In this document: positions 10,277 to 18,199 of the stretch, piece by piece
How positions within the stretch are numbered: position 1 is the first letter of the stretch
How the letters are laid out: each line of letters starts with the position of its first letter
DNA from: Oscillospiraceae bacterium
GTDB taxonomy: Bacteria > Bacillota > Clostridia > Oscillospirales > Oscillospiraceae
DNA length: 19,500 bases
Direction: 5' to 3'
NCBI GenBank assembly: GCA_017521875.1
Contig: JAFXBH010000290.1
Location: 1 to 19,500, forward strand
Made by a program: the position numbers and the translations under genes
Notes under the pieces: generated by a model
Told to the model about the DNA's origin: nothing
The model's input: only the letters and a program-made list of their open reading frames with translations
Databases searched by the model: none

Positions 10277-12361
10277 TTAGTAGAACAGCAAATCCGAATA
10301 GGTAGGGTAAGGCCAGTAACTCTTATCTGTCAAACTTTCCAAAATGTCACCCTGGGTACGGAGCATTTCCATATCTGTAATAATAACCTCTTGGTAGTAG
10401 GAGACAAGTGCCTCTTTTTCCTCGGGAATATGTACCAAATCCCGCTGCAGTCTTTCACAACACTGATACATCAGGTCAGTGGCCCGGGTTAGTTGCTGGG
10501 CAATTTGCATTTCTGCGTCGTAGGAAAGCCCCAAATCTTTTTTGGACTGAATGTCGTTACACAGATCTCTGCAGTAATGCATAGCAGCAGGCAGAATTTG
10601 ATGTAGAGTCATATCGATGCAAGTTTTTGCCTCAATATTCACCATCTTGCGATAGGCGTCCAAATGGATTTCATATCTTGCACGGAACTCTTCTTCTTTG
10701 TAAATGCCATGCTTTGTAACCAAATCAATGTTCTTCTGCTGGATATAAGTAGGCAGGCATTTTGCGGTAGTGGCATAATTGCTTAATCCGCGGCGGGCCG
10801 CTTCTTCGGTCCACTTAACAGAATAACCGTTGCCGTTGAAGATGATTCGTTGATGTTCTGTGAATGTTCTGCAGACCAATTTCTGCAAGGCGTGGTCAAA
10901 ATCTTCGGCCTGTTCCAATTCGTCTGCAAACTTGCCCAACTCCTCTGCCATAATGGTATTCAGAGCAATGTTAGGGCCGGCAATGGATTGGGAGGAGCCC
11001 AGCATACGGAACTCAAATTTATTACCTGTAAAAGCAAGGGGAGAGGTGCGGTTACGGTCGGTAGTATCTTTGGGTATGGCGGGCAAAACATCCACGCCGA
11101 TTCGCATAACGCTCTTTTCGGGATCGGTGTAGTTGGTTCCGTTGATAATGGAATTTACAACGGCGTTTAGTTCGTCACCGAGAAAGATAGAGATAATCGC
11201 AGGAGGTGCTTCGTGAGAACCAAGACGGTGATCGTTGCCGGCAGATGCGACTGTGCAGCGCAGGAAATCCTGATACTCGTCAACGCCCTTGATAAATGCG
11301 GCTAAAAACACCAAAAAGCGTGCGTTTTGCCGGGGCGTTTTGCCGGGGCTAAAGAGATTGCTGCCGGTGTCGGTAGCCAAGGACCAGTTATTGTGTTTGC
11401 CGGAACCGTTCACTCCGGCGAAAGGCTTTTCGTGAAGCAGACAGACCAGGTTGTGCTTGGCAGCACACTTTTTCATCACCATCATAATGATTTGGTTGGC
11501 ATCACAGGCGCTGTTTGCATCGGTATAGATGGGAGCAATTTCATGCTGACAGGGTGCAGTTTCGTTGTGCTTGGTCTTGGACAGAATACCCAGTCGCCAA
11601 AGTTGCTCATCCAGGTCTTGCATAAAATTGGAAACCCGGGTACGAATAGTGCCGAAATAATGGTCTTCTAATTCCTGACCTTTGGGAGGGAGCGCACCGA
11701 AGAGGGTACGGCCGGTCAGGCGTAAATCTTCCCGCTTGGCATACATATCCTTAGGCAGCAGAAAATACTCCTGTTCTGCGCCGACACAGGTTTTGATTCG
11801 CTTGGTATCGGCATCGCCAAAGAGCCGCAAAATTCTCAAGGCTTCCCGGGATACTTCGTCAATAGACCGGAGCAGAGGCGTCTTCTTATCCAGCGCTGCG
11901 CCGGTAAAGGAGAAGAAGCAAGTAGGGATATACAGACTGCCGTCTTTTACAAATGCAAATGCAGTGGGATCCCAGGCGGTGTAGCCGCGGGCCTCAAAAG
12001 TGGCGCGCAAACCGCCGGATGGGAAAGAGGATGCGTCCGGTTCACCCCGCACTAATGCTTTGCCGGAAAATTCCATAATGACCCGGCCGTCATCGGTGGG
12101 TTCGATAAAGGAATCGTGTTTTTCTGCAGTGATACCGGTCATAGGTTGGAACCAGTGGGTATAATGGGTAGCGCCTTTTTCAATGGCCCAGTCCTTCATG
12201 GCCACCGCAATTTCGTTTGCAACAGTTAATTCCAGGGGGGTACTGTCTTCAATACATTGTTTCCAAGCATGGAAAACCTCACTGCTAAGCCGTTGTTTCA
12301 TAACGGCCTCATTAAAGACATCACTGCCGAAAATCTCCGGAACATGAATTTTATGACTCAT
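10277..12361 (-). CDS. glnN: Glutamine synthetase, type III
   Basis: The enzyme makes glutamine from glutamate, ammonia and ATP. The 694-residue length and motif set are those of GSIII, the large dodecameric form common in Bacteroides and anaerobic clostridia, not of the roughly 450-residue GSI. Landmarks are 'THYTHWFQPMTG' (65-76), 'FPSGGLRATFEARGYTAWDP' (113-132), 'GAEQEYFL' (194-201), 'KHNETAPCQHEIAPIY' (264-279) and 'NGSGKHNNWSLAT' (318-330); 'GNDHRLGSHEAPPAI' follows. The start at 12361 has AAAGG about ten bases upstream. It is a single-gene unit transcribed away from the aminotransferase-kamA operon. A 16-bp palindrome overlaps its -35 box, so control shared with that operon is likely. 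Confidence 0.96.
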   Translation of the reverse strand: MSHKIHVPEIFGSDVFNEAVMKQRLSSEVFHAWKQCIEDSTPLELTVANEIAVAMKDWAIEKGATHYTHWFQPMTGITAEKHDSFIEPTDDGRVIMEFSGKALVRGEPDASSFPSGGLRATFEARGYTAWDPTAFAFVKDGSLYIPTCFFSFTGAALDKKTPLLRSIDEVSREALRILRLFGDADTKRIKTCVGAEQEYFLLPKDMYAKREDLRLTGRTLFGALPPKGQELEDHYFGTIRTRVSNFMQDLDEQLWRLGILSKTKHNETAPCQHEIAPIYTDANSACDANQIIMMVMKKCAAKHNLVCLLHEKPFAGVNGSGKHNNWSLATDTGSNLFSPGKTPRQNARFLVFLAAFIKGVDEYQDFLRCTVASAGNDHRLGSHEAPPAIISIFLGDELNAVVNSIINGTNYTDPEKSVMRIGVDVLPAIPKDTTDRNRTSPLAFTGNKFEFRMLGSSQSIAGPNIALNTIMAEELGKFADELEQAEDFDHALQKLVCRTFTEHQRIIFNGNGYSVKWTEEAARRGLSNYATTAKCLPTYIQQKNIDLVTKHGIYKEEEFRARYEIHLDAYRKMVNIEAKTCIDMTLHQILPAAMHYCRDLCNDIQSKKDLGLSYDAEMQIAQQLTRATDLMYQCCERLQRDLVHIPEEKEALVSYYQEVIITDMEMLRTQGDILESLTDKSYWPYPTYSDLLFY

Positions 12362-12415
12362 TTTGACTCATCCTTTCAAAATGAAATGATATAAACAAAA
12401 ACATCTGCTGACTAG

Positions 12416-12444
12416 ATTTTATGCTATCATCGAGAAAAAAGCAA
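12416..12444 (-). promoter_or_regulatory. Probable promoter of glnN
   Basis: On the minus strand TTGCTT (12444-12439), a 17-base spacer, and TAAAAT (12421-12416). Transcription would begin near 12409, about 48 bases before the glnN start. The -35 box overlaps one arm of the palindrome at 12441-12456. Confidence 0.65.
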
Positions 12445-12456
12445 GATATATCTTGC
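12441..12456. promoter_or_regulatory. Perfect 16-bp palindrome, candidate operator shared by glnN and the aminotransferase-kamA operon
   Basis: GCAAGATATATCTTGC is fully self-complementary and is flanked by A6 on the left and GT6 on the right. Its two TTGC ends form part of the -35 boxes of both divergent promoters (TTGCTT minus, TTGCGT plus). That position fits a dimeric repressor site better than a terminator, since neither neighbouring gene ends here. It does not match the TnrA/GlnR-type TGTNA-N7-TNACA consensus, so the regulator is unknown. Confidence 0.6.
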
Positions 12457-12481
12457 GTTTTTTATGAAAAGGGTGTATAGT
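12453..12481 (+). promoter_or_regulatory. Probable promoter of the aminotransferase-kamA operon
   Basis: TTGCGT (12453-12458), a 17-base spacer, and TATAGT (12476-12481). Transcription would begin near 12488, about 32 bases before the start codon. The -35 box contains the right end of the palindrome. Confidence 0.7.
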
Positions 12482-12519
12482 ATCCACAGTAAATTTTGAT
12501 TATGAAATGAGGGTTACCT

Positions 12520-13797
12520 ATGACTTATCTTCAGATGTCCAGAGAAGAATTGCAAAAGGAATACGAACTTCAGCAGAAGCATTTTGCTGATTGCAAGGCG
12601 CAGAACCTGAAATTAAATATGGCTCGTGGCAAGCCCGGCGCTGCACAGTTGGATCTGGTTAGTGACATTCTTTCCTGTTTTGTAGATCCTGCCGAGTGCT
12701 TTACTGACGGCATTGACGGAAGAAATTACGGCGAATTGGCAGGCCTGCCTGTTGCCAGAAAGTATTGGGCAGATGTGCTGGGTTGTAAGCCGGAGCAGAC
12801 CTTCATTGGCGGTGCTTCCAGCCTGAACTTGATGTTCGATATTATTTCCCGTGCATTTTCTCATGGTTTGCTTCATAGCCCTCGTCCTTGGAGCAAGGAA
12901 GCGGTTGTTAAGTTCCTGTGTCCCAGTCCCGGTTATGATCGTCACTTTAAGGTCACAGAGTTCTTTGGCGCAGAACTGATTACTGTTCCTATGACTGCTA
13001 CCGGTCCTGATATGGATGTGGTGGAAGATCTGGTTAAGGATCCGCTTGTCAAGGGCATTTGGTGTGTTCCCAAGTACTCTAACCCCGATGGCATCATTTA
13101 CTCTGAAGAGACCATCAACCGTTTTGCGAACCTGAAGCCTGCTGCACCTGACTTTACCATTATGTGGGATAACGCCTATTGCGTCCACGAGTTCGAGGGC
13201 GAATATGTTCCGTTCCCGGATATCATCTCCCTATGTGAGAAGGCCGGCAATCCGGATATGGTCTACGAGTTTGCATCTACCTCCAAGATCACATTCCCCG
13301 GCGCAGGTTTCTCTGTGATCGCAACATCCGAGGCGAATATTCAGTATATTTCCGGCCTGTTTGGCGTTCAGACAATTTCTTATGATAAGATCAACCAGTT
13401 GCGTCATGTCAAATACCTGAAGGACAAGGCTCATACCCTGGAAATTATGAAAAAACATGCAACTGTTCTGGGCCCCAAGTTCGGCGTGGTTGCCGATATG
13501 CTGGACAAAGAGATTGCACCCTGCGGCTTTGCCCAGTGGAACCGTCCTATGGGTGGCTACTTCGTCAGCCTGAATACCATGCACGGCACTGCTAAGCGGG
13601 CGTTGAGTCTTTGTAAAGAGGCCGGTGTTGTGATGACATCTGCCGGCGCCACTTTCCCCTATGGAAATGATCCTCAGGACAGTAATATCCGGATTGCTCC
13701 CAGTCTGCCTCCCGTTGCAGAACTGGAAAAGGCAATGGATGTATTTTGTACCTGCCTGAAACTGGCTGCATTGGAGAAGTTACTGGAGAAGAACTAA
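12520..13797 (+). CDS. Aspartate aminotransferase-like PLP enzyme (subgroup Ic, MocR-type domain)
   Basis: A 425-residue fold-type I aminotransferase of the family once called Aminotran_MocR and now linked to aspartate aminotransferases. It lacks the GntR-type DNA-binding domain of true MocR regulators, so it is an enzyme. Landmarks are 'LNMARGKPGAAQLDL' (32-46), 'GGASSLNLMFD' (97-107), 'CPSPGYDRHF' (134-143), 'PKYSNPDG' (184-191), 'WDNAYCVHEF' (216-225, Asp217 to the pyridine nitrogen), the Schiff-base K256 in 'ASTSKITFPGAG', and a C-terminal 'SNIRIAPSLPP' with the substrate-carboxylate Arg. Codons are strongly biased (CTG, GGC, AAG), suggesting high expression. The start follows an ATGAGGG site. 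It is 50 bases ahead of kamA with no terminator between, so the enzymes may share a pathway. Confidence 0.9.
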   Translation: MTYLQMSREELQKEYELQQKHFADCKAQNLKLNMARGKPGAAQLDLVSDILSCFVDPAECFTDGIDGRNYGELAGLPVARKYWADVLGCKPEQTFIGGASSLNLMFDIISRAFSHGLLHSPRPWSKEAVVKFLCPSPGYDRHFKVTEFFGAELITVPMTATGPDMDVVEDLVKDPLVKGIWCVPKYSNPDGIIYSEETINRFANLKPAAPDFTIMWDNAYCVHEFEGEYVPFPDIISLCEKAGNPDMVYEFASTSKITFPGAGFSVIATSEANIQYISGLFGVQTISYDKINQLRHVKYLKDKAHTLEIMKKHATVLGPKFGVVADMLDKEIAPCGFAQWNRPMGGYFVSLNTMHGTAKRALSLCKEAGVVMTSAGATFPYGNDPQDSNIRIAPSLPPVAELEKAMDVFCTCLKLAALEKLLEKN

Positions 13798-13847
13798 CCG
13801 GAGTTTTATTTGCAGCGTAAAGACTATATAGCCACGGAGGAATCCCT

Positions 13848-15101
13848 ATGATTACACCCAACGGTTTATTTGCTGATATCCCCGTCCATCAGTGGAATGA
13901 CTGGACATGGCAGGCGAAAAACCGCATAACCACACTGGAAGAATTGAAAAAATACATTGTGCTTACTCCTGAAGAGGAGCAGGGTGTCAAGAAGTGTCTT
14001 TCTACCTTCCGTATGGCCATTACGCCATATTATATGTCCCTGATGGATCTGAATGACCCGCAGGATCCTATTCGTAAGCAGATGATTCCGTCTGCTGAAG
14101 AATTGTACTTTGCCCCGGAAGAATCTGCAGACTCTCTACATGAGGATACGGATTCTCCCGTAAAAGGATTGACCCACCGGTATCCGGACAGAGTTCTGTT
14201 CTTGATTACAGACCGGTGTGCAGCCTATTGCCGTCATTGTACCCGACGCCGTTTTGTTGGTCAGACCGATAATGCGATGCCCCGTGAGCAAATTGATGCG
14301 TGTATCGCTTATATTCGGGACCATAAGGAAGTGCGGGATGTGTTGGTTTCCGGCGGCGATGTGTTTATGCAGAGTGACGAGACTTTGGAATATGTCATTT
14401 CTCAACTGCGGACCATTGACCATGTGGAGATTATTCGCCTGGGCACCCGTACCCCTGTTGTAATGCCCCAGCGTATTACTCAGGAACTCTGTGATATGCT
14501 GAAAAAATATCATCCCATTTGGGTGAATGTCCATTTCAATCACCCCAACGAGATTACTCCGGAATCTGCCGCTGCCTGTGCAAGACTGGCAGATGCAGGT
14601 ATTCCTTTGGGCAATCAAAGTGTTCTTTTGGCTGGTATCAATGACTGTGTCCATGTGATGCGTAAACTGGTCAACGATCTGGTAAAGATCCGGGTTCGCC
14701 CTTATTATATCTATGCCTGCGACCTGAGTTTAGGCTTGTCCCATTTCCGTACGCCTGTCAGCAAGGGTATTGAAATTATCGAAGGCCTGCGAGGTCACAC
14801 CAGCGGTTTCTGCGTACCCACATTCGTGGTAGACGCACCCGGCGGCGGCGGAAAGATTCCTGTAATGCCGAATTATGTTCTTAGTCAAGCACCGGGAAAG
14901 GTTGTTCTTCGCAACTTTGAAGGTGTGATTACCACCTATACAGAGCCGGTCAATTATCATTCTCAATGTAATTGTTCTGTATGCCGTGGGGAAAAAGAGA
15001 ATGTGCTCAATGGTATTGCGGGGCTGGAGCAGGGGATGGCGGTCAGTTTTGAACCTACCGACCTTCCCAGAAAGAACCGTCTGCACGGCAGTAAAGACTA
15101 A
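13848..15101 (+). CDS. kamA: Lysine 2,3-aminomutase (radical SAM, PLP-dependent)
   Basis: KamA interconverts L-lysine and L-beta-lysine with SAM, a [4Fe-4S] cluster and PLP. The 417-residue protein closely follows the Clostridium subterminale enzyme as I remember it. It has CxxxCxxC at C124, C128 and C131, followed by RRR; the PLP lysine K336 in 'PGGGGKIPV'; and the zinc cysteines C374, C376 and C379, with C267 from the partner subunit. D292 ('YACDLSLGL') and D329 ('FVVDAPGG') match the two aspartates that hold the lysine side-chain amine; glutamate 2,3-aminomutases have Lys and Asn there, so lysine is the likely substrate. The 'SGGDVFMQSDE' loop (168-178) differs from the usual 'SGGDALLVSDE'. 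GGAGG precedes the ATG by seven bases. No kamDE, kdd, kce or beta-lysine acetyltransferase gene is in the window. Confidence 0.93.
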   Translation: MITPNGLFADIPVHQWNDWTWQAKNRITTLEELKKYIVLTPEEEQGVKKCLSTFRMAITPYYMSLMDLNDPQDPIRKQMIPSAEELYFAPEESADSLHEDTDSPVKGLTHRYPDRVLFLITDRCAAYCRHCTRRRFVGQTDNAMPREQIDACIAYIRDHKEVRDVLVSGGDVFMQSDETLEYVISQLRTIDHVEIIRLGTRTPVVMPQRITQELCDMLKKYHPIWVNVHFNHPNEITPESAAACARLADAGIPLGNQSVLLAGINDCVHVMRKLVNDLVKIRVRPYYIYACDLSLGLSHFRTPVSKGIEIIEGLRGHTSGFCVPTFVVDAPGGGGKIPVMPNYVLSQAPGKVVLRNFEGVITTYTEPVNYHSQCNCSVCRGEKENVLNGIAGLEQGMAVSFEPTDLPRKNRLHGSKD

Positions 15102-15104
15102 TTA

Positions 15105-15138
15105 AAAACGAGAGTTGCTTGTTTGCAACTCTCGTTTT
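15105..15138. terminator. Bidirectional terminator between kamA and the gatD-like gene
   Basis: A 14-bp perfect stem (15105-15118 with 15125-15138, core CGAGAGTTGC/GCAACTCTCG) around TTGTTT, with T-rich tails on both strands. It fills the gap between the converging genes. Confidence 0.92.
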
Positions 15139-15140
15139 CT

Positions 15141-15860
15141 TTATTTGCTGGGTTTGCTCTTAATAAAACGCAGTGTAGAGTCAAAAGCATCTTTGGCGAT
15201 CGGGTAGTCGCCGGATTTTGAGACGGTAATATTCTTTTGCTCCAGAATTCCTTTCATAATTACTTCGGCAAACCAGGGATTTTTAACAAATAACGGGCCA
15301 AGACAGTTGGTGTAAATTAAATTGTTCCAACGAGCGCCCTCGGTGCCGGAATTGTTGTTACCCATTCCATAAAGGGTTGTACAAAGAGAATCTTTGACAT
15401 CCACATCTGCCATCTGAATCTGGGAGCCGATCAGTTCCATTTCAGTGCCGTTTATTTTGCAGTGCAGATCATCACCCCAGACGTATTTCCGCTCTGTTGC
15501 GGTCATATCCAAATATCCCAAGCCGGCCAGTTTACTGCCGTCCTCCCGGAGAATGGATTTGCCGAACATGAGCCCGGAGGTGCCAATAGCCAGTAAATAA
15601 CCGCCTTGTTCCAGATAATTCCGAAGAGTAATAGTTTGCAGAGCGGGAATGATGTGGTAGAATGTTGCAATTTCACCGGGGAGGAAAACAAGCAGATCCA
15701 GTTGGTCAAAAGGAATGGAATCGTCAAAATCTTCAATTCGAATAATTTCGACTTCCACATCCAGTTGTTTGCCGACTTCAACCAGAGCCTGAATACTGCC
15801 TCGTTCTCCGTGGAGATTCAGCAGGTTGGGATACATCCAACCAACGGTAATTTTATCCAT
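15141..15860 (-). CDS. gatD: GatD-like glutamine amidotransferase subunit lacking catalytic Cys and His
   Basis: A 239-residue class I amidotransferase-fold protein of the GatD group. In canonical GatD, the glutaminase subunit supplies ammonia to MurT for amidation of lipid II glutamate. Family landmarks are clear: 'YPNLLNLHGERGSIQAL' (10-26), 'GSKLAGLGYLDM' (108-119), 'KYVWGD' (125-130) and 'YGMGNNNSGTEGARW' (164-178). But the nucleophile elbow, normally 'ICGGYQ', reads 'AIGTSGLMFG', putting Gly93 at the Cys position. The normal 'YLHGP' reads 'NCLGP', putting Leu187 at the His position. The 'GGGxDxxQ' segment reads 'LPGEIATFY'. Glutaminase activity by the known mechanism is therefore not expected. 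The reading frame is intact and overlaps the murT-like gene by eight bases, so it is probably a functional non-catalytic partner, not a pseudogene. Confidence 0.82.
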   Translation of the reverse strand: MDKITVGWMYPNLLNLHGERGSIQALVEVGKQLDVEVEIIRIEDFDDSIPFDQLDLLVFLPGEIATFYHIIPALQTITLRNYLEQGGYLLAIGTSGLMFGKSILREDGSKLAGLGYLDMTATERKYVWGDDLHCKINGTEMELIGSQIQMADVDVKDSLCTTLYGMGNNNSGTEGARWNNLIYTNCLGPLFVKNPWFAEVIMKGILEQKNITVSKSGDYPIAKDAFDSTLRFIKSKPSK

Positions 15861-17214
15861 TTGCTGTTCCTCCCTGGGTAAAGTATTTCTTAATTTCTGG
15901 CGCGTGAACAGTATTGGTCAGAATATAAACCACATCAACAGGCATTTGATCCAGGGAAGCAAAAATCTTGGAGGTGTCGTTGCTGTCTACAACAGCAACC
16001 CGATCTTCCGGTGCACCTGCAAGGAGCATACGGCTTGCAATGTCGTTGGCAACGGTAGAGGAGAATGCAACAAAGTATTCTGCGTTGCTACTGACAACCG
16101 GAGCAAAATCACAGTCAAAGAAGTAAAAACTGCCGCCATAGTGAGGATAGAAGTCGGTAATTTCATACATACCTACAAATACAGCCTTTTTGCGATTGTC
16201 AGAGGCAATAATATCCAACTGGGACTGAAGCGCTTCGGGGTTTTCTTGTTTGCCCCGCAGATAATGGATTTCCTTTCCGTTGTACTGCATAACAGTTGCG
16301 TGGGAGGCAGGATTGGTAAAAGACTGAAATCCGTTTAGGATTTCTCTGTCAGCCAAGCCAATTTCGCGACAAATGGCAATACAAACAGCAAAATTATAAA
16401 TATAGAACGGTCTGCAGTAGGGAACAGTCCAACGGGACTCGCCACATAAAAATGTCTTTCGTTCAAAGTCTACTTCCGAGACAGTAACATCTGCATTCTT
16501 TTTAGACTGGTAATCGCATCTGGTGCAATGAAAACGACCGATGCTGGCAAGATTGTAGTAATCATAAGCGATGGGGTGAAAGCATTTGGGGCAGGGAAGT
16601 GTTACATTGTAGAAATCATCCCGCACATAACTTTCGCTGTTTTTCTCTACAGAAAAATAGACGGTTTTACCTGCAAAATCTTCCAGAGAATGACTGCGCG
16701 GTTCTTCGTTGTTGAGAAACAGGGTCATATCCTGATCAATTGCACCGCGAATCTTCCGGAGAATAAAATCCGGGTCTCCGTTGCGCTGTACTTGATCTTT
16801 TTGCAGATTGGTCAGAGCAAGATTCCGTCCGGGAAGTACCTTCCGAATGCCAGGAAAACTCCGCTCGTCAATTTCCAACACGAGGTATTCCTTGTTCAGC
16901 GCGCCGGATAGGGTGGAGTTTTTGATCAGTGTTGTAGCAACACCGCCCATCATGTTGGCGCCCTCTGTGTTGCAGGCCACCGTCTTGCCTGCAGAGATAA
17001 GGGTATGATACAGCAAATTGGTGGTGGTAGATTTTCCGTTTGTACCGGAAATAAAGAAAACTTTATTGTAGTTTATATTTTTAAAATGGGCGACAAATTT
17101 CGGCATCAATTTCACGGCAATCTTTCCGGAATAATTACTGCCTCGCTTTTTGTCGATTATATTGACTGCAAAGGATATAAACTTGCAGACCCAAAGCGTA
17201 AACAAAAATCGCAT
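15853..17214 (-). CDS. murT: MurT-like Mur ligase family protein
   Basis: A 453-residue Mur-ligase-fold protein of the MurT type; canonical MurT uses ATP and GatD-derived ammonia to amidate D-glutamate in lipid II. It has the P-loop 'GTNGKSTT' (57-64), 'NTEGANMMGGVATTL' (82-96), the metal-site region 'LEIDERSFP' (113-121), 'LTNLQKDQVQRNGD' (134-147), and a four-cysteine zinc ribbon (C208, C211, C230, C233) peculiar to MurT. The C-terminal domain follows, but its usual 'ND-N-ADG-D-SW-WD' stretch reads 'EITDFYPHYGGSFYFFD' (351-367). The ATG at 17214 is taken because an in-frame ATG at 17262 falls between the promoter boxes; GGAGG stands 11 bases before it. The amide donor or substrate may differ from canonical MurT. 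Confidence 0.85.
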   Translation of the reverse strand: MRFLFTLWVCKFISFAVNIIDKKRGSNYSGKIAVKLMPKFVAHFKNINYNKVFFISGTNGKSTTTNLLYHTLISAGKTVACNTEGANMMGGVATTLIKNSTLSGALNKEYLVLEIDERSFPGIRKVLPGRNLALTNLQKDQVQRNGDPDFILRKIRGAIDQDMTLFLNNEEPRSHSLEDFAGKTVYFSVEKNSESYVRDDFYNVTLPCPKCFHPIAYDYYNLASIGRFHCTRCDYQSKKNADVTVSEVDFERKTFLCGESRWTVPYCRPFYIYNFAVCIAICREIGLADREILNGFQSFTNPASHATVMQYNGKEIHYLRGKQENPEALQSQLDIIASDNRKKAVFVGMYEITDFYPHYGGSFYFFDCDFAPVVSSNAEYFVAFSSTVANDIASRMLLAGAPEDRVAVVDSNDTSKIFASLDQMPVDVVYILTNTVHAPEIKKYFTQGGTANG

Positions 17215-17241: not shown

Positions 17242-17270
17242 AGTATAACACAAATATTGCACAATGACAA
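17242..17270 (-). promoter_or_regulatory. Sigma-A promoter of the murT-gatD-like operon
   Basis: On the minus strand TTGTCA (17270-17265), a 17-base spacer, and TATACT (17247-17242), with transcription expected near 17235. The pair therefore has its own promoter just downstream of the iclR terminator. Confidence 0.78.
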
Positions 17271-17326: not shown

Positions 17327-18118
17327 TTAGTCCTCTTTTTGATAGCCGAGCCGAGCAGAGATTTTCTGAGAAGCGCTTCGCAGTTCCGCAAAAACAGTAT
17401 CCAATACATCCTCGTCCTGCATTTCGTCCGAAGGGCCAAAGACGCTGATCGCAGCACAGACCCTTCCGGTATAGGAATAAAGAGGGAAAGACACACAACG
17501 CAAACCGGGTTCACACTCCTCGTCGTCGATGGCGTAACCCTGCTGACGAACTTTCTCCAGTTCGTCCATCAACTGCTGAGGCTGTATAATTGTGTGGTCG
17601 GTATACTTCTTCAACCCAATGCCTTCAATGTAATTATTCAGTTGAATAGGGGTGTATGTAGACAACAGAATTTTGCCGGATGCAGTTGTGTGAAGCGGTG
17701 CTAATTTGCCAATGTGCTGCAGGGGAGTGTGTGGTGCTTGCACAGGGTCAATACAGTCAAGATAAATAGACTCATTTTCTTTGCCGACCACTAAACAGAC
17801 ACCCAGTTGCAGTGTGTTTGCCAAATAACTGACAAAACTACCGGCGATGTTGCGCAGACCCAGATGAGAATCCCGGTTTTCCGTTAGTCCGCACAGTTTC
17901 CAGGTCAGACCGTATCGCAGGGTTTGTTCCTCCTGATATACATAATTGGCGTTTTGTAATGTGCGCAGATAACGCAGCACAGTGGGTTGACTCATGGAAC
18001 TTTTTTCTGCGATATCTTGCAGACGCATAGGAACTCTGCTTTCTGCTACGCATTCCAAAATAGCCAATAATTTGTCCGATGACAGACTGGCTTGCCGTTC
18101 AGTACCTCCGTTTGCCAT
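17327..18118 (-). CDS. IclR-family transcriptional regulator
   Basis: A 263-residue two-domain regulator. The N-terminal winged helix-turn-helix (about 12-65) includes 'LQDIAEKSSMSQPTVLRYLRTL' as its recognition-helix region; the C-terminal IclR effector domain (about 80-255) has 'APLHTTASGKILLS' and 'YAIDDEECEPGLRCVSFPLYSYTG', hallmark stretches of the ligand pocket. The ligand is probably a small organic acid or related metabolite, but it is not identifiable. The ATG at 18118 is chosen because GAGG lies six bases before it and a clear promoter ends at 18147; in-frame ATGs at 18184 (upstream of the -35 box) and 18130 are rejected. It is divergent from the aldehyde dehydrogenase gene, which it very likely controls. 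Confidence 0.92.
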   Translation of the reverse strand: MANGGTERQASLSSDKLLAILECVAESRVPMRLQDIAEKSSMSQPTVLRYLRTLQNANYVYQEEQTLRYGLTWKLCGLTENRDSHLGLRNIAGSFVSYLANTLQLGVCLVVGKENESIYLDCIDPVQAPHTPLQHIGKLAPLHTTASGKILLSTYTPIQLNNYIEGIGLKKYTDHTIIQPQQLMDELEKVRQQGYAIDDEECEPGLRCVSFPLYSYTGRVCAAISVFGPSDEMQDEDVLDTVFAELRSASQKISARLGYQKED

Positions 18119-18146
18119 AACACACCTCATCTTAAATAATGATATT

Positions 18147-18175
18147 AGTATATAATTCTTCTTTGCAGGTGTCAA
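18147..18175 (-). promoter_or_regulatory. Sigma-A promoter of the iclR-type gene
   Basis: On the minus strand TTGACA (18175-18170), a 17-base spacer, and TATACT (18152-18147), with transcription expected near 18140, about 22 bases before the start codon. Confidence 0.83.
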
Positions 18176-18199
18176 GTGTTTCAAAATTCGTTAAATATC

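Follow-up and report, generated by a model that had tools for sequence, protein, structure and literature searches.

MurT–GatD is described in the literature as a glutamine-dependent amidotransferase and as a drug target. In Staphylococcus aureus the complex is reported to amidate the α-carboxyl of D-Glu in lipid II (PMC6301993), while the GatD variants C94A, H189A and R128A are reported to be inactive in glutamine deamidation (PMC5871853). For the complex of Streptococcus pneumoniae, activity is described as depending on the P-loop Lys, an acceptor Asn and an acid pair of MurT, and the complex itself on a MurT Trp that contacts a Gly of GatD (PMC6085368). Also named among the closest known systems are the MurC, MurE, MurF and pseudomurein ligases and, on the glutaminase side, the CobB/CobQ domains. 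Here we describe a relative of this pair in a stretch of 19,500 nucleotides from an Oscillospiraceae bacterium (contig JAFXBH010000290.1), hereafter called the window, in which a murT-like gene is followed by a gatD-like gene that appears to have lost its glutaminase site.

The gatD-like open reading frame (15141–15860; the features of the pair all lie on the minus strand) is intact, starts with ATG and encodes 239 residues with a class I glutaminase fold. Its start overlaps the stop of murT by eight bases (ATGGATAA, 15853–15860). A phmmer alignment with S. aureus GatD (PDB 5n9m/6gs2) places Gly93 (15582–15584) at the nucleophile C94 and Leu187 (15300–15302) at the catalytic H189, and the columns come out the same when GatDs of related genomes are aligned. 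The GGGxDxxQ segment of GatD reads LPGEIATFY, where L60-P-G-E-I64 (15669–15683) stands in place of the oxyanion strand GGGxD and marks the subtype to which the window protein belongs; Gly at position 60 occurs in 83/83 canonical rows versus 0/20 subtype rows. In place of the canonical G-F-E-N-H motif lies G145-S-Q-I-Q-M-A-D152 (15405–15428), turning E-N-H at 147–149 into Q-I-Q: E147 and N148 are found in all 83 canonical GatD rows, Q147 and I148 in all 20 subtype rows and Q149 in 15 of them. The predicted fold matches GatD crystal structures. A first-pass annotation, made from the letters of the window alone, had proposed the Gly and Leu replacements, the loss of GGGxDxxQ, the intact frame with its eight-base overlap and the retention of the fold, and all of these are borne out.

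Profile databases place the protein at the margin of known families. Pfam returns only GATase_3, below threshold (19.1 bits; cut-off 27), and the NCBIfam GatD equivalog NF045636 gives 54.2 bits, below its cut-off of 400. This weak likeness recalls the CobB/CobQ glutaminase domains, and some relatives are labelled CobQ-like by their sources; unlike those domains, the window protein is free-standing, lies beside murT, has GatD as its best structural match and has no catalytic Cys or His. Taken together, the comparisons confirm it as a GatD homologue without glutaminase catalytic residues. It is best not catalogued as GatD the enzyme, and would take over what GatD does apart from catalysis.

The partner gene (15853–17214) is open up to a GTG at 17262; its start is placed at the ATG at 17214, where relatives begin (MRFL...) and which has GGAGG upstream. 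Its product scores above the cut-off for PF08353 (MurT_C), has S. aureus MurT as best PDB match (E 1.5e-39) and is predicted to fold as in MurT crystal structures, with 121.2 bits for the NCBIfam MurT equivalog NF045635 (cut-off 800). The P-loop GTNGK[ST] (with residues 73–77), the acceptor Asn103 and the acidic Mg sites E130, D132 and E133 are kept in the window and in 20/20 subtype rows, as is the Cys4 zinc ribbon (C224, C227, C246, C249). The site of the Trp needed in S. pneumoniae is Phe or Tyr in 19/20 subtype rows, and the Gly of GatD that it contacts is kept in 19/20. At the site of S. aureus MurT-D349, the third residue of the triad, the alignment shows Gly377 (16132–16134, numbered from GTG 17262); this site is Asn in 13 and Gly in 7 of the 20 subtype rows, and Asp in 83/83 canonical ones. 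The full triad, which is spread over two genes, is thus gone. The three active-site losses counted in the first-pass annotation all stand, and the replacement of D349 makes that count too low.

Compared with the MurT–GatD structures of S. aureus (6gs2/6h5e), S. pneumoniae (6fqb) and S. pyogenes (9sq9), the pair shares folds, gene order, pairing, the MurT ATP site and the zinc ribbon, and the change of the HGP loop to xGP with the following NP can be counted as a likeness. Unlike them, it lacks Cys, His, Gly60 and E-N-H in GatD, while in MurT D349 and the DNAAD motif are replaced and the loop at the interface is rewritten. No description of a Cys-less GatD was found in the Creative Commons-licensed literature searched.

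How widespread is such a pair? Among 61 genomes of the genus, GatD matches occur in 18, four of the window type (55–100% identity) and 14 distant, and all 14 are without Cys and His. For the order, a MurT profile search covered 247 genomes of at least 90% completeness, the window's own excluded. Matches above 200 bits, read from the list by eye, were found in 67 genomes, one each; 66 loci were taken (a fragment in G167 was left out) and 65 of these had a GatD, G089 having none. In 47 of the 65 pairs both Cys and His are missing, 18 keep Cys, His and Asp349, and none has just one of Cys and His. The Cys site of the 47 holds Gly in 46 and Ser in one, and Asp349 is lost in 42 (Glu in 28 of the 47) and kept in five. 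The gatD gene follows murT within 200 bases at all 47 Cys-less loci (at most 146) and at 17 of the 18 canonical ones.

The surveys of the class (match at 1e-30 in 153/293 genomes) and of the phylum (match in 105/299) were sampled, and since the loci returned first were the best scoring, they are biased to Cys-less forms. Overall, 193 GatDs were classified: 83 with Cys and His, 108 without Cys, and two with Cys and without His (one with Asp, one, L149, ending before the site); L215 is scored as Gly in an ambiguous alignment, a Cys sitting one residue earlier. Two loci (L190, L197) have Asn at the Cys position, in an INN elbow, and no His. The window's subtype is present in Acetobacterium woodii, A. 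carbinolicum, A. bakii and Eubacterium, as named by their sources, with Gly and Leu confirmed at both sites. Pseudoflavonifractor phocaeensis is an example of a cultured Oscillospiraceae member that carries a Cys-less pair.

Trees of both subunits point in the same direction. From 197 rows, five with a short MurT or no GatD were dropped, then near-copies of at least 72% identity, so that 155 of 192 entered an unrooted MurT tree made by a quick search with the D349 loop left out. One branch (Shimodaira–Hasegawa-like approximate likelihood ratio test, SH-aLRT, 99) splits 75 rows, 66 canonical and nine odd, from 80 that are all Cys-less and His-less. The window's subtype forms 14 of these rows, grouped at 100, and is marked mostly by [SP]GE for GGGxD and mostly by GT[ST] at the elbow. 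An equally quick, unrooted GatD tree without the catalytic columns groups the same 14 (99) and the other 66 (98). These patterns confirm what appears to be an old and widespread lineage of MurT–GatD without a glutaminase site rather than a one-off, a breadth that the first-pass annotation had no means of seeing. The fewest changes between Cys and no Cys are seven on the MurT tree and six on the GatD tree, which suggests several separate losses of Cys besides the old one. Five loci on the canonical side have lost Cys and kept His: L142, L146 and L193 (Gly) and L194 (Ser) also keep Asp, and L217 has Glu for Asp; judged from their placement, these are separate losses of the nucleophile. L189 has lost Cys and His and kept Asp.

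The replaced residues are themselves conserved. We found 576 homologues and aligned 120 of them, taken among the matches listed: Gly93 is present in 120/120, and residue 187 is Leu in 70, Met in 38 and Thr in 11, one row not being printed. This goes beyond chance; a search of relatives for the Gly/Leu change was among the checks proposed in the first-pass annotation. Two further sets of 120 homologues each were compared, again among the matches listed and one per Cys-less type. Where the Cys would be, they show Gly in 119 and a gap in one; where the His would be, one set shows Leu (120) and the other Thr (120). The ratio of nonsynonymous to synonymous substitution rates (dN/dS) among close relatives is 0.05–0.10. 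The former glutamine pocket, its positions chosen by the analyst, is more conserved than the rest of GatD in both Cys-less groups (0/20,000 random draws were as low), the canonical group giving the same result. A pseudogene or an assembly artefact, which nothing but the missing catalytic residues would recommend, is ruled out for practical purposes by the open frames, this low dN/dS, the number of homologues and the recurrence of this form in genomes assembled as one contig, G384 and G460 among them. A viral origin was likewise rejected, as no relative was found in the viral contigs searched.

What could a MurT–GatD pair without a glutaminase do? An S. aureus GatD mutant made in the laboratory, C94G, carries the identical change from Cys to Gly; the experiments reported in PMC3266927 describe its glutamine use as abolished and its NH3-driven lipid II amidation as intact at pH 8.5, and its authors hold that MurT requires GatD whatever the nitrogen donor. 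Unlike this mutant, the window form is natural and apparently old, and His and the MurT Asp are lost as well. Given the behaviour of C94G, the natural pair is most simply read as an ammonia-dependent complex that amidates lipid II and has a structural GatD. The products of the two genes would form a complex whose GatD has given up glutamine hydrolysis and serves as an obligate structural or activating subunit. MurT, its ATP site kept, should remain able to activate a carboxylate, most probably the α-carboxyl of D-Glu in lipid II, and the acyl phosphate would most likely be attacked by free ammonia, reaching it via the old glutaminase side or from solvent. The product would be D-isoglutamine as in S. 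aureus, made without a glutaminase. We give this reading as a whole a probability of about 0.5; complex formation, acceptor and ammonia as nucleophile are what we infer, and MurT may possibly use an amino acid in place of free ammonia. A non-glutaminase role as such, already argued in the first-pass annotation, is well supported by the loss of Cys, His, Gly60 and MurT-D349 together with the fold, the pairing and purifying selection. The roles listed there (structural or allosteric subunit, small-ligand binder, partner working with free ammonia or another amine) were rightly named and left open; the evidence now narrows them to a structural or activating subunit of a MurT-type ligase.

Several observations weigh against ammonia-dependent amidation. 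At pH 7.5, the assays reported in PMC3266927 showed no use of NH4Cl or NH3 by either the wild type or the C94G complex. The DNAAD motif, thought to touch the muropeptide (PMC6113224), is gone or replaced, and in the rewritten MurT loop at the GatD interface Y/F161 has become Asn in 20/20 and 76/81 rows. The site of the Trp needed in S. pneumoniae is Phe or Tyr in 19/20 subtype rows, and the Gly of GatD that it contacts is kept in 19/20. The pocket of the Cys-less GatDs is still conserved, which hints at a ligand; some of its positions also face MurT, so this conservation is no proof of one. The pair is patchy as well: 21 of the 61 genus genomes have a MurT match, one merely a weak fragment, and 40 have none, so many relatives can do without the function or achieve it by other means. 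Finally, G579 carries a canonical pair in addition to one of the window's subtype (L166, L167), suggesting separate jobs at least there. The 16 genomes with the subtype mostly speak for replacement in the same role, as 14 of them carry a single MurT (at 1e-15). The relative G075 (95% complete) and G384 (one contig) have one MurT each, and in the window genome, which is 82% complete and has one MurT_C, no second, canonical pair was found. Two different Cys-less pairs occur in G536 (L130, L164).

The chief alternative is an amino-acid nucleophile. Other Mur ligases use amino acids. The walls of Acetobacterium and Eubacterium limosum belong to group B, whose cross-links run through the D-Glu α-carboxyl. 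For Eubacterium, B2α is listed in a review table (PMC11382707). It is conceivable, though we lean against it, that the Cys-less pair joins glycine or a diamino acid to the D-Glu α-carboxyl of lipid II, the very carboxyl that S. aureus MurT–GatD is reported to amidate (PMC6301993), with the old glutamine pocket holding the amino acid or its amine, and that some members thereby start the group B interpeptide bridge. The subtype's presence in Acetobacterium and Eubacterium argues for this, as does the pocket, re-conserved with the new polar residues E63, Q147, D152 and D131. So do the neighbours at the 12 subtype loci for which long flanks were fetched: in five, a glmM-like gene lies at most two genes from gatD, adjoining it in two and separated by an mnmA-like gene in three, in which a glmS-like gene then follows, and murE is nearby in one further locus. 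The glmM-like call means the phosphoglucomutase/phosphomannomutase family by Pfam, one member having been scanned; such neighbours fit a wall role. Against an amino-acid ligase stands the substrate motif of MurE, read in 29 of 30 genomes (G191, with no open reading frame bearing the signature, was dropped): it is DNPR, the mark of meso-diaminopimelate, in the window genome and in 3/3 close relatives tested, and DNPA in A. woodii, as in four of the five tested f71 genomes without a canonical pair, A. woodii included. The subtype thus spans wall types, and wall type read from the motif failed as its predictor, with both DNPR and DNPA present and a few genomes having neither. No paper on a group B bridge ligase was found in the literature searched. 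The bolder version, in which the whole Cys-less and His-less lineage consists of amino-acid ligases on this carboxyl, their former pocket holding the amino-acid nucleophile, starting the bridge in Acetobacterium and Eubacterium and adding another substituent on the meso-diaminopimelate wall of the window's gut lineage, is unlikely.

The loss of DNAAD and the pocket conserved with new residues would also suit another acceptor or a regulatory role, with the pair serving as a sensor or scaffold by binding lipid II or some other muropeptide. We consider this improbable: the kept P-loop and acidic catalytic residues of MurT lead one to expect ATP-dependent ligation, and there is mostly one pair per genome. 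Could the nucleophile have moved instead? Cys186, next to the old His, might form a new glutaminase site with His17 and Glu19, and the three are indeed kept among the listed close relatives (C186 120/120, H17 116/120, E19 120/120). In the wider subtype, however, C186 is found in just 9/20 rows, with Thr or Ala otherwise, and neither the oxyanion Gly60 nor the E147-N148-H149 motif has survived. A relocated conserved Cys, which the first-pass annotation had named as one finding that would overturn its view, is therefore very unlikely.

If 47 of the 65 sampled pairs of the order cannot use glutamine, the presence of the genes is no safe ground for annotating a bacterium as a maker of isoglutamine, nor for predicting which gut bacteria shed isoglutamine-bearing fragments, the kind sensed by NOD2. 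The lineage provides natural versions of C94G for studying the activation of MurT by GatD apart from the glutaminase, as well as a concrete and testable candidate for the group B bridge ligase. It also leads one to ask what else these bacteria may be putting on the building block of their walls.

Beyond murT and gatD, no gene is common to all loci compared. In the window, gatD is flanked at 10277–15101 by genes for a type III glutamine synthetase, for an aspartate aminotransferase (PF12897) and for a radical S-adenosylmethionine protein of the lysine-2,3-aminomutase family (kamA); all three are kept near gatD in several relatives of the window's clade. As kamA is convergent with gatD, it is not in an operon with it. 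A hairpin with a T run 3' of gatD (15104–15139), readable from the kamA side too, is one of six terminator-like sites found versus 2.4 expected by chance. Upstream of murT, a sigma-70-like promoter (TTGTCA-17-TATACT with TG before the second hexamer; 17242–17270) is a consensus match only, with four found versus 3.6 expected by chance in the region. At L224 (G508, contig C80), some 2 kb separate murE from a Cys-less pair, and the substrate motif of this MurE is CHPR, not DNPR. G318 has a canonical pair and, elsewhere (contig C41:25719-27398; L279, L280), a second MurT-like open reading frame of 575 residues that matches MurT in two halves; similar split matches occur in several genomes of the phylum. 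Further upstream of murT in the window lies an IclR-type regulator (17327–18184), with a terminator-like hairpin between the two.
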